A stretch of 38,321 bases of DNA from a bacterium (lineage in GTDB: Bacteria; Patescibacteriota; Minisyncoccia; UBA6257; 2-01-FULL-56-20): the NCBI GenBank assembly GCA_021780195.1, contig JAJXZE010000017.1:1-38321 (forward strand). Reading direction: 5' to 3'. The notes under the pieces were generated by a model, which was not told where the DNA came from, made no database searches, and saw only the letters and a list, made by a program, of their open reading frames with translations. This document shows, in pieces, positions 8,593 to 38,321 of the stretch; positions within the stretch are counted from its first letter, which is position 1; every line of letters begins with the position of its first letter. The position numbers and the translations under genes were made by a program.

Positions 8593-8622
8593 CGAGTCCT
8601 TTATGGGCCCATAGTAAAGTGG
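8593..8622 (+). repeat. Orphan 5' tRNA fragment, direct-repeat copy 1 (CGAGTCCTTTATGGGCCCATAGTAAAGTGG)
   Basis: 30-bp perfect copy of 8680-8709, covering the leader and 5' end of the complete tRNA. Confidence 0.9.
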
Positions 8623-8657
8623 CCCCTCGCCAGGGGCGAGGCGATTGCAGTTTGAAA

Positions 8658-8787
8658 AGCTTTCGATTTTATTTACTATCGAGTCCTTTATGGGCCCATA
8701 GTAAAGTGGTATTACGCCGCATTCGCATTGCGGAGGCGCGAGTCCGATTCTCGCTGGGTCCACATCAGGGTAAATAAAATCGAAAGC
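8658..8787. repeat. 18-bp perfect inverted repeat flanking the tRNA-Ala-like gene
   Basis: GCTTTCGATTTTATTTAC (about 8659-8676) and GTAAATAAAATCGAAAGC (about 8770-8787). Confidence 0.92.
8692..8762 (+). tRNA. tRNA-Ala-like (anticodon CGC)
   Basis: GGGCCCA/TGGGTCC acceptor with G3:U70, D-stem GTAA/TTAC, anticodon stem CCGCA/TGCGG with loop TTCGCAT, T-stem GCGAG/CTCGC. Atypical T-loop TCCGATT (C at position 55); variable loop 4 nt; followed by CA. Confidence 0.75.
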
Positions 8788-8791
8788 GTGT

Positions 8792-8839
8792 CCGCATCCG
8801 CATTGCGGAGGCGCGAGTCCGATTCTCGCTGGGTCCACA
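8792..8839 (+). repeat. Orphan 3' tRNA fragment (copy of 8717-8764)
   Basis: 48 bp with one mismatch (T33 to C) to the 3' part of the complete tRNA. Confidence 0.9.
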
Positions 8840-8891: not shown

Positions 8892-9731
8892 TCAGCGTCG
8901 GAAAAGCGATTGATTTCCTGGGACGAGGCCAAGGAGGCGAATTGAGAAAACCTCGTAGTTTACAAGTCCAAGAATCGCACCTACCACCGCACCGACGAGT
9001 GCACTGCCGACAAAGTAACCGATGGCGCTACCGATGGCCGCATCCACGGCGCAGAGTAATCGCACCTCAGAATGAATGACTCGGAAAGACATTTTCAGGA
9101 ATCGGTAGAGAGCGTTCACGTTGTGTCTAAATTTCTGCTGATTTTCTTGGGAAAACCAGCAAGCAACCCTCTTTTGTATCGCGCGGGGTACGGTCCAGAA
9201 GAAGAACTTAGGCACCCTTAAGCCGTAAAAGCGAAATGGGTCGCAAAGATACATTCCTCCTAAAAACAGAACCTCTTCGCGGAGGGCATTAGCTTTTTGG
9301 CTGTTGCTCGCCCAGAATCCCACTATCAATCCCGCTATCAATCCCGCACAAAGCATACATTGCATCATCATCGCTACGCCAAGGAGGAGACTGGCGATAG
9401 TCTCATCCCCTTTGACAAGCGCTGCGGAAATAGCGAGGAATAAAATCAAGGACACTTCAGCTATTGCAATCGTGACAAGCAGGCCAATCATTTCCATCAC
9501 GAGTGCGTAACGGGCGCGCCACAATTCAAGGTTGGGGCGCCATGCGGTAGCCGCTGACCATGCTTGGGGAATTGCGGCTGCTACCGCCTTCCATTCGAAA
9601 GATAGATAACCAGTAGATCCACCCACGACCAGTCCTATCCACCAAAAGAATGGATGTAGCTGAAGGGCAGTCAGCGCTCCGACAAATGCGCCGAGAGCGC
9701 AGGAAAGCGAAATTTTAAAGCCCGTTTTCAT
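8892..9731 (-). CDS. Multi-pass membrane protein of unknown function
   Basis: 279 aa, several hydrophobic helices and glycine-zipper-like segments; GGAGG upstream of ATG (CGGAGGCCAACCAATATG). Confidence 0.75.
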   Translation of the reverse strand: MKTGFKISLSCALGAFVGALTALQLHPFFWWIGLVVGGSTGYLSFEWKAVAAAIPQAWSAATAWRPNLELWRARYALVMEMIGLLVTIAIAEVSLILFLAISAALVKGDETIASLLLGVAMMMQCMLCAGLIAGLIVGFWASNSQKANALREEVLFLGGMYLCDPFRFYGLRVPKFFFWTVPRAIQKRVACWFSQENQQKFRHNVNALYRFLKMSFRVIHSEVRLLCAVDAAIGSAIGYFVGSALVGAVVGAILGLVNYEVFSIRLLGLVPGNQSLFRR

Positions 9732-9795: not shown

Positions 9796-9824
9796 ATAAT
9801 ACATTTTAACTGGTTCGTAGTCAA
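9796..9824 (-). promoter_or_regulatory. Promoter of the membrane protein at 8892-9731
   Basis: Minus strand TTGACT (9824-9819), 17-nt spacer, TATTAT (9801-9796). Confidence 0.55.
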
Positions 9825-9837
9825 GCATTTGTAAGTG

Positions 9838-9949
9838 GATTCTCACGCTCACTGTATAGGAGTTTGCAGGTTAACTGCACGGGTATCTTTGATACCCCAT
9901 ACTCTGATGTATGTCATGCATTCACATCGGAAGGGAGGATTTGTCGGTC
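9838..9949 (-). repeat. Dispersed intergenic element, copy 1
   Basis: Aligns over about 110 bp to 38198-38310 (ATTCTCAC.CTCA.TG...GTTTGCAGG...CCAT.CTC.GA.GTATGTCAT...CATCGGAA...CGGTC). Confidence 0.8.
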
Positions 9950-10202
9950 CTCGTCCGTATGCTGTAGGCCGGATATATGGGCGCCGAGATCGCCCCGCAC
10001 CTTCTGGAAAGATCCGAGCGCGATGAACCGCCGCATCGCGTAGCACGGCGGCAGGGGCGCGTATGATGTCCGCGAGGCGCGGCGGCGAAAGCATATTGCT
10101 CGCGTGGATGCGATGCAAAGCGTCCGCGCATTGAATGGTCGGCTCCTCGACATGGTCATGAAGATGCTCAAGGGGCATCTTTCTCCCGAAATGACCGCCC
10201 AC
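9917..10202 (-). pseudogene. Possible frameshifted small coding remnant
   Basis: MPLEHLHDHVEEPTIQCADALHRIHASNMLSPPRLADIIRAP in one frame continues as APLPPCYAMRRFIALGSFQKVRGDLGAHISGLQHTDEDRQILPSDVNA* in the next, with GC-rich third positions in the second frame. Confidence 0.3.
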
Positions 10203-10231
10203 GAAAACGTCTCAAATTCAAAAGTCCGCTA

Positions 10232-10280
10232 CAGATATTCAAAAAGACCAATCTGTGCAATGAGAGTGCAAGTTCAAGCG
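10232..10280 (+). repeat. Dispersed intergenic element, partial copy 3
   Basis: TATTCAAAAAGACCAATCTGTGCAATGAGAGTGCAAGTTCAA versus minus strand of copy 2 TTATGAAAAAGACC---TGTGCAATGAGCCTGCAAACCCC. Confidence 0.55.
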
Positions 10281-10293
10281 TGGCGCGCTGACC

Positions 10294-10368
10294 TCCCTGC
10301 AGGCATTCCCTTTCCGGAACGCTTACTGGGGATGGTTGCATTCCGGAAAGGGAATGCCTGCAGGGAGA
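10294..10368. repeat. Long perfect inverted repeat (27-bp arms, 21-nt loop)
   Basis: CTCCCTGCAGGCATTCCCTTTCCGGAA (10294-10320) and TTCCGGAAAGGGAATGCCTGCAGGGAG (10342-10368). Confidence 0.97.
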
Positions 10369-10447
10369 GCAGTCCCGGTTTGCTATACTTATAGCAAGGG
10401 TATTTTCCCTGCCAAAGGTCGAAGTACAGCAAATTTCACTAACGCTA

Positions 10448-11131
10448 ATGATAGTGCAAAGTTGGACTGATGTGGTCACGCAGTCGTTGCAGAGCGTGTG
10501 GATGCAGTTTGCGTCGTTCATGCCGAATCTTATCGGGGCGATCATCGTCCTTATCATCGGCCTCGTCGTGGCGGCCGGCCTCGGCGCGCTCGTCGAGAAG
10601 ATCTTCGAAGCGCTCCGGCTGGACACCTTCCTCGAGAAACTTGGCCTCCGGCCTTATTTTGAGAGGGCGGGCCTTCGCATCCGCGGCGCTTACTTCCTCG
10701 GACGGCTGGTCTACTGGTTTATCGTGATCGCGTTTCTGCTTGCGGCGTCCGACAGCCTGGGCCTCTACGCGCTTTCGAGTTTCCTCGACTCCGTGCTGGC
10801 CTACCTGCCAAACGTCATTGCGGCGGTCTTGATCATGCTTGCGGCCCTCGTCCTCGGAAACTTCGTCCGGAGGGTGGTTACGGCATCGGTATTGAGCGCC
10901 AAGCTCCACGCCGCACACTTCCTCGGCACGGCGTCGTGGTGGGTGATCGCGATCTTCGGGTTCTTTGCGGCCCTTACGCAATTGAACATCGCAACGGCGA
11001 TCATCCAGAGCATCGTGACGGGTTTCATCGCGATGCTCGCCCTCGCCGGCGGCCTGGCCTTCGGGCTCGGCGGCAGGGAATATGCGAGCCATCTCGTGAG
11101 CCGCCTGCGCGAGCGCACGGAATCGAAGTAG
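10448..11131 (+). CDS. Membrane protein with conserved TM-helix repeats (MscS-related/CmpX-like)
   Basis: LPNLIGAIIVLIIGLVVAAGLGALVEKIFEAL and LPNVIAAVLIMLAALVLGNFVRRVV repeats; C-terminal LAFGLGGREYAS. Confidence 0.8.
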   Translation: MIVQSWTDVVTQSLQSVWMQFASFMPNLIGAIIVLIIGLVVAAGLGALVEKIFEALRLDTFLEKLGLRPYFERAGLRIRGAYFLGRLVYWFIVIAFLLAASDSLGLYALSSFLDSVLAYLPNVIAAVLIMLAALVLGNFVRRVVTASVLSAKLHAAHFLGTASWWVIAIFGFFAALTQLNIATAIIQSIVTGFIAMLALAGGLAFGLGGREYASHLVSRLRERTESK

Positions 11132-13609: not shown

Positions 13610-14119
13610 ATGGAGGTCGCCGAACGGAGGGAAATTTTTACGGAGATGAGCCGGATCGTCGGGGTAATCACGGAGAGTTTTGACGACAAGATCCAGCTTG
13701 TCGTTGAGCAGTTTTTGAGCGTGCACGACGAATTGCATGATATACGGAGGACGCTCGCAATCCACGAAGAGAAGATCGATCGCCTGACCGTCTCGGTGGT
13801 GGCGCTCAAGCAGGATGTCACCGTGCTTAAGCAGGAGGTAGCCGAACTGAAGAAGGATGTCGCCGTGCTTAAGCAGGATGTTGCCGAACTGAAGAAGGAT
13901 GTCGCCGTGCTCAAACAGGATGTAGCCATTCTCAAGCAGGATGTTGCCGAACTGAAGAAGGATGTCGCCGTGCTCAAACAGGATGTAGCCATTCTCAAGC
14001 AGGATGTGACCGTGCTTAAGCAGGATGTCGACGGGTTGAAGAATGACATGGGCGAGGTGAAGACGTCTCTCGCGGGCAAGGCGAATCTCGTCGACGTCCG
14101 CGAGCTTCGTCGCGCGTAG
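13610..14119 (+). CDS. Coiled-coil heptad-repeat protein
   Basis: Near-perfect heptads VLKQDVA/ELKKDVA; ATG 8 nt after a TATAGT box. Confidence 0.75.
   Translation: MEVAERREIFTEMSRIVGVITESFDDKIQLVVEQFLSVHDELHDIRRTLAIHEEKIDRLTVSVVALKQDVTVLKQEVAELKKDVAVLKQDVAELKKDVAVLKQDVAILKQDVAELKKDVAVLKQDVAILKQDVTVLKQDVDGLKNDMGEVKTSLAGKANLVDVRELRRA
13802..14032 (+). repeat. 21-bp tandem repeat (about 11 units) within the coiled-coil gene
   Basis: Units such as GTGCTCAAACAGGATGTAGCC / ATTCTCAAGCAGGATGTTGCC / GAACTGAAGAAGGATGTCGCC; a 63-bp three-unit block is duplicated almost exactly. Confidence 0.95.
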
Positions 14120-37508: not shown

Positions 37509-37591
37509 GGCTTCGCTCTCCGGCATATGTGTTGCCGGAACATCCCTTCCTCGTAAATGTTCCGGCAACACATATGCCGGAGAGCGAAGCC
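37509..37591. repeat. Long perfect inverted repeat (35-bp arms, 13-nt loop)
   Basis: GGCTTCGCTCTCCGGCATATGTGTTGCCGGAACAT (37509-37543) and its exact complement (37557-37591). Confidence 0.97.
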
Positions 37592-37960: not shown

Positions 37961-38134
37961 CTAGGGTACCCGGGGGAGCAGGTGCTCCACGAGTGGTGCG
38001 GACCACTCGATAAGAGCACCGAGGAAAAAAATGGTGGCGATAAATACAAATACCGCCACCGCCGGCCATAACGTGGCCGGCTCGTGATCCCGCCGTTTGG
38101 CGGGGATGATACCTTGGCGCTCCCACTGAATCAT
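37961..38134 (-). CDS. Small single-pass membrane protein, 57 aa
   Basis: MIQWERQGIIPAKRRDHEPATLWPAVAVFVFIATIFFLGALIEWSAPLVEHLLPRVP; AGGAGG SD. Confidence 0.65.
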   Translation of the reverse strand: MIQWERQGIIPAKRRDHEPATLWPAVAVFVFIATIFFLGALIEWSAPLVEHLLPRVP

Positions 38135-38157: not shown

Positions 38158-38185
38158 AGAGTACCATATTATTCTGTTTTGTCAA
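38158..38185 (-). promoter_or_regulatory. Promoter of the 57-aa membrane protein gene
   Basis: Minus strand TTGACA (38185-38180), 16-nt spacer, TACTCT preceded by TGG. Confidence 0.6.
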
Positions 38186-38197
38186 ATGGCGCAGGGT

Positions 38198-38310
38198 GAA
38201 TTCTCACCCTCATTGCACAGGGGTTTGCAGGCTCATTGCACAGGTCTTTTTCATAATCCATGCTCCGAGGTATGTCATACACACGCATCGGAAAAGAAGA
38301 TTGGACGGTC
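38198..38310 (-). repeat. Dispersed intergenic element, copy 2
   Basis: Homologous to 9838-9949. Contains an internal 13-bp direct repeat CTCATTGCACAGG at 38209-38221 and 38232-38244. Confidence 0.8.
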
Positions 38311-38321
38311 ATAGCCCGCAT

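Follow-up and report, generated by a model that had tools for sequence, protein, structure and literature searches.

The targets described for E. coli IS30 are hot spots of nearly palindromic sequence or the element's own inverted repeats, with attack at a 2-bp distance (PMC9333248), and a 2-bp direct repeat has been described for ISApl1 (PMC10916398). Mutator-type elements, namely TnGBS, ISLre2 (p-MULT 3) and some ISKra4 (p-MULT 4), are known to insert in one orientation and at a constant distance upstream of sigmaA promoters, which for TnGBS and related ISs is 15–17 bp from the -35 box (PMC3942029). For TnGBS and ISLre2, contact of the transposase with RNA polymerase was proposed, with the orientation being determined by the inequality of the inverted repeats, and the position-specific integration of the yeast retrotransposon Ty3 through the transcription initiation machinery was cited as an analogy (PMC3942029). 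The repeats described here are very probably ends of IS30-family elements, and judging from their sequence context the transposase of this clade would be guided to pre-existing promoters at a fixed register.

The window, i.e. the whole 38,321-nt stretch of DNA that was analysed, is the entire contig C2 of a 701-kb genome (G000; 20 contigs, 98.4% complete). The presence of a repeat in the window was confirmed, since its two main copies form a gapless alignment of 126 nt (score 97 versus at most 27 in 300 shuffles). Both of them carry GTGAGAAT(T/C)CAC followed after 10 nt by TTGAC(A/T), i.e. the -35 box lies 10 nt past the conserved dodecamer, as had been noticed in the original prediction. The copies are longer than the roughly 110 bp first assigned to them (9838–9949 and 38198–38310, both on the minus strand), with copy 1 reaching to about 9961 and copy 2 to the contig end at 38321. 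A partial third copy had been placed at 10232–10280 on the plus strand. It has only a short block in common with copy 2, its alignment with copy 1 is no better than with shuffled copy 1, and it turned out to be the opposite (right) end of copy 1's element instead of the same segment.

Window positions 9834–10278 match the intact 1.05-kb IS of a relative from the same order (G066) from end to end, except that about 0.66 kb is missing internally. In an alignment of a 1061-nt query holding this IS to the window genome, query positions 5–303 correspond to C2:9835–10134 and positions 965–1055 to C2:10189–10278. Copies 1 and 3 therefore represent opposite ends of a single decayed IS. The features of the window are listed below; offsets (register positions) were counted with reference to the G of the GAA trinucleotide that is conserved in the inverted repeat, so that the IS terminus falls at offset 9, and promoters here and in the following are sequence predictions.

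8892–9731, minus strand: 279-aa membrane-type ORF without Pfam family, downstream of the promoter flanking the decayed element.
9796–9801, minus strand: -10 box TATTAT, 17 nt from the -35 box TTGACT.
9819–9824, minus strand: -35 box TTGACT of the promoter adjoining the left end of the decayed element, at register position 18.
9834–10278, plus strand: decayed, internally deleted IS30-family element, aligned to the intact IS; accounts for copies 1 and 3.
9834–9857, plus strand: inverted repeat on the left side of the decayed element, whose terminus is at 9834, from the alignment with the intact IS.
9862–9881, plus strand: inner repeat in sub-terminal position at the left end, bearing another TGCA-type motif; its counterpart in copy 2 is at 38223–38243.
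9993–10199, plus strand: transposase remnant with one internal stop codon, 64% identity to residues 28–96 of the intact transposase (E 5.4e-23).
10190–10249, plus strand: remnant of the transposase C-terminus (NDRPRKRLKFKSPLQIFKKT), from translation and DNA match to the intact IS.
10254–10278, plus strand: right inverted repeat, the former partial third copy, from the alignment with the intact IS.
37961–38134, minus strand: small 57-aa membrane-type ORF downstream of the promoter flanking the younger copy.
38158–38163, minus strand: possible weak -10 box TACTCT, 16 nt from the -35 box TTGACA.
38180–38185, minus strand: -35 box TTGACA adjoining the left end of the younger copy, at register position 18.
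38195–38321, plus strand: left end of a younger IS copy that is truncated where the contig stops, including the transposase start (MSYTRIGKEDWTVIARM); 88% identity, IS positions 4–130.

At the decayed copy no matching 3-bp repeat was found as a target duplication, and the DDE triad is not whole in the remnant, the middle of the element being deleted. Long inverted repeats with 35-nt arms are present at 10288–10372 and 37509–37591 (91 and 100% complementary, loops of 15 and 13 nt, respectively). The former directly follows the decayed IS on its right side, and a similar hairpin occurs in the flank of contig C20 by an IS right end. A tandem array with a 21-bp period at 13762–14097 holds 12 overlapping register copies. 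Rfam returned two gathering-level matches in the window, both of them tRNAs outside the repeat. Around the tRNA gene at 8692–8762, stretches within 8593–8839 are duplicated: a 30-nt exact repeat with copies 87 nt apart, and a 48-nt repeat (98%) with copies 75 nt apart that covers the 3' part of the tRNA.

The intact IS of the relative has 24-nt inverted repeats (88% complementary) that are 1000 nt apart, and one ORF of 315 aa. The encoded transposase belongs to the IS30 family (NF033563, 239.1 bits, cut-off 80) and contains the Pfam rve domain along with a sub-threshold match to HTH_38, while no Mutator-type transposase family is listed among its domain matches. The DDE triad D173, D230 and E264 is conserved in 26 aligned transposases, with at most two exceptions per column. 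Direct repeats of 3 bp were found at the predicted terminus (offset 9) in 23 of 69 copies, compared to 1.1 expected and to at most 5 at other offsets. The element is an IS30 insertion sequence of 1.05 kb with imperfect inverted repeats of about 24 bp, one DDE transposase gene and a 3-bp target duplication. NF033563 has no match in the window genome, because the only copies there are decayed or cut at contig ends. No relatives were found in the viral contigs searched, nor was a sequence relative found among solved structures. On contig C25 of genome G015 (locus L054, positions 1–420), two IS left ends lie about 220 nt apart with a right end near position 400; these are nested or rearranged IS30 remnants.

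The original prediction had regarded the repeat as an upstream regulatory element or operator of membrane-protein genes. Fixed spacing and orientation to the -35 box in both main copies would suit such a role, but the repeated DNA consists of an IS inverted repeat and the 5' part of the transposase coding sequence, and every further copy found in other places is a complete or broken IS. The analysis gave no sign of an operator or of a leader element, and both were rejected on the end-to-end match to the intact transposon; a regulatory function is thus extremely improbable. Orientation toward membrane-protein genes holds for the genes concerned, but carries no special meaning. The argument that consistent orientation and fixed -35 spacing are not chance repeat debris stands, since both hold across genomes. 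The first interpretation is thereby supported in part, while the cause is apparently target-site choice by an IS30-family transposase.

Further ends of the element were found at contig ends of the window genome. The last 127 nt of C2 are repeated exactly where C18 ends, in identical orientation; another end, of 126 nt, is common to C15 and C20. The ends of C2 and C18 comprise IS positions 4–130, those of C15 and C20 positions 936–1056. From the length of the overlaps we infer the typical result of an assembler halting in a multicopy element. By its 3-bp target duplication (CGT) C18 is paired with C15. The flanks of C2 and C20 (CAG, GTC) are unmatched despite the 126-nt overlap joining C20 to C2, possibly due to an IS-mediated rearrangement. 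In the flank of the IS left end on C18 (L043), TTGACA is located at offset 28, not 18, about one helical turn farther out. A second repeat family, probably another multicopy IS, occurs at the ends of C3, C4, C5, C6, C8, C9, C12, C13, C16, C17 and C19, with sequences such as ...GTGTCCTAAGATTGGGGTCATTGACA and ...TCTTTGGACAATCCGACC...GGGGTCAAGGCCA.

IS copies for the analysis of the promoter register were collected from the order first, then from class and phylum, as well as from genome contigs including other phyla. Automatic anchoring was mis-set on the inner sub-repeat in L096 and C2c1, and also in L118; some IS ends were anchored by hand, and L118, being mis-anchored in the register count, was scored as a miss. 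In the relative with the intact IS, TTGACT stands at the identical position past the left end, in a flank that is otherwise unrelated. Within the left-end group of Patescibacteria, 17 of 27 flanks match TTGACA at offset 18 in at least five of six positions (mean of 0.17 and maximum of 3 in 2000 shuffles). The mean -35 match at this offset is 6.5 sd above the average offset, the next best offset reaching 1.5, and the TATAAT match peaks at offset 41, 17 nt downstream of the -35 box (3.7 sd). In a sister clade the right end lies by the promoter and the register is shifted by 1 bp, with TTGACA at offset 19 in 8 of 10 right flanks (9 of 10 with L118 re-read) and a TATAAT peak at 42. The left-end register thus reads IS end, 3-bp duplicated target, 6 bp, TTGACA, 17 bp, TATAAT, with 7 bp in place of 6 in the right-end clade. 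In each case the promoter reads away from the element and sits in host DNA outside the IS, with a different sequence at each site.

The rule was recorded after the order-level search and before the searches of class and phylum, where by our own count it was obeyed in 8 of 14 left flanks and 6 of 7 right flanks. Among relatives outside Patescibacteria, none of 40 ends had the promoter register. In a quick transposase tree, calculated without bootstrap, left-end-promoter rows fall mostly into one group of 28 rows and right-end rows into one of 13 rows (SH-aLRT 99 for both), with the non-promoter relatives outside. In L095, L098, L160 and L151, a weak -35 box is accompanied by a strong -10 box at the proper spacing. 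The other end is used in L102, L105 and L155, and in L142, L157, L159, L165 and L150, which belong to the same clades, no promoter was found at that position. An ORF of at least 45 codons with a Shine-Dalgarno-like motif was present within 330 nt downstream in 20 of 31 cases, as counted in a simple scan without background control.

A more distant IS30 clade (about 27–31% identity; loci L107, L111, L120, L121, L122 and related) has an inward-reading TATAAT peak at one offset past the right end (mean match 3.53, z 4.1, 15 copies). A -35 peak matching this TATAAT peak was not seen in the clade, which seems to insert downstream of promoters, between the -10 box and the ribosome-binding site.

Could promoters next to IS ends merely be leftovers of selection, which purges insertions in genes after ordinary IS30 copies have inserted at random? 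Compact genomes favour an intergenic location, and this speaks for such an origin, as do those copies that have no promoter at their end. Selection would, however, permit varied distances, whereas the observed peak at offset 18 is one base wide and differs by one base between the two clades. Random insertion was rejected on the promoter register, and we consider it very unlikely.

Due to the fixed register, the transposase instead seems to target positions that lie upstream of sigma70 promoters by about 9 bp, and since the sequences differ at every site, these promoters should predate the insertion. We propose that the transposase complex is guided to promoters already present, which would include a step of promoter sensing. 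Guidance would probably involve contact with RNA polymerase sitting on the promoter, through its alpha-CTD or sigma region 4 near -44; alternatively, the transposase itself may read promoter DNA. Insertion would thus take place upstream of genes without breaking them, as would suit a 0.7-Mb genome, and the orientation would be fixed if the two ends are recognised unequally, as has been suggested for TnGBS and ISLre2.

A simpler process may be considered, in which the transposase reads TTGACA as plain DNA with no role for the -10 box or RNA polymerase, and surviving hexamer sites are mostly promoters. The -35 signal indeed exceeds the -10 signal, and L154 has TTGACC with no recognisable -10 box. 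Copies with a poor -35 box (TTGCTT, TTGCAT, TTGCAA, TTGCGC) nevertheless keep a strong -10 box at the right distance, and the -35 box of the C18 copy is displaced by about one helical turn. Recognition of the hexamer alone is conceivable but rather doubtful. The loci with weak -35 and strong -10 boxes, together with the helical-turn case on C18, would favour a promoter complex over the bare hexamer, although they are no proof of it. With regard to guidance by the promoter complex, we see about equal grounds for and against a wider proposal, namely that promoter guidance arose in IS30 transposases of Patescibacteria separately from that of Mutator-type elements, through docking onto the complex of RNA polymerase and promoter, and that the promoter-facing end, the spacing (6 or 7 bp) and perhaps the side of the promoter used vary among clades.

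If true, a further, unrelated transposase family would be in register with promoters almost to the single base, and promoter guidance would seem to have emerged repeatedly as a way of living in small, gene-dense genomes. How a DDE transposase senses a promoter could be tested on these elements, and if promoters precede insertion, each IS copy marks a promoter in uncultivated Patescibacteria. A literature search with incomplete coverage, and therefore weak as evidence of absence, returned no relevant report on promoter targeting by IS30 or on IS30 in candidate phyla.

The elements of Patescibacteria share with IS30, IS1655 and ISApl1 the transposase family model, the rve domain with its DDE triad, a single ORF, a length of about 1 kb and imperfect inverted repeats of 20–30 bp. 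In contrast to E. coli IS30 and ISApl1, they show 3-bp duplications and a promoter register. Oriented insertion at a fixed distance upstream of promoters is a feature in common with TnGBS, ISLre2 and some ISKra4, but the transposase family is a different one and the distance from IS end to -35 box is 9 or 10 bp. Ty3 differs in being a retrotransposon that uses eukaryotic RNA polymerase III factors, with contacts established by experiment. Being IS30 by structure and TnGBS-like by target, the elements described here would thus work like p-MULT without being a member of it.
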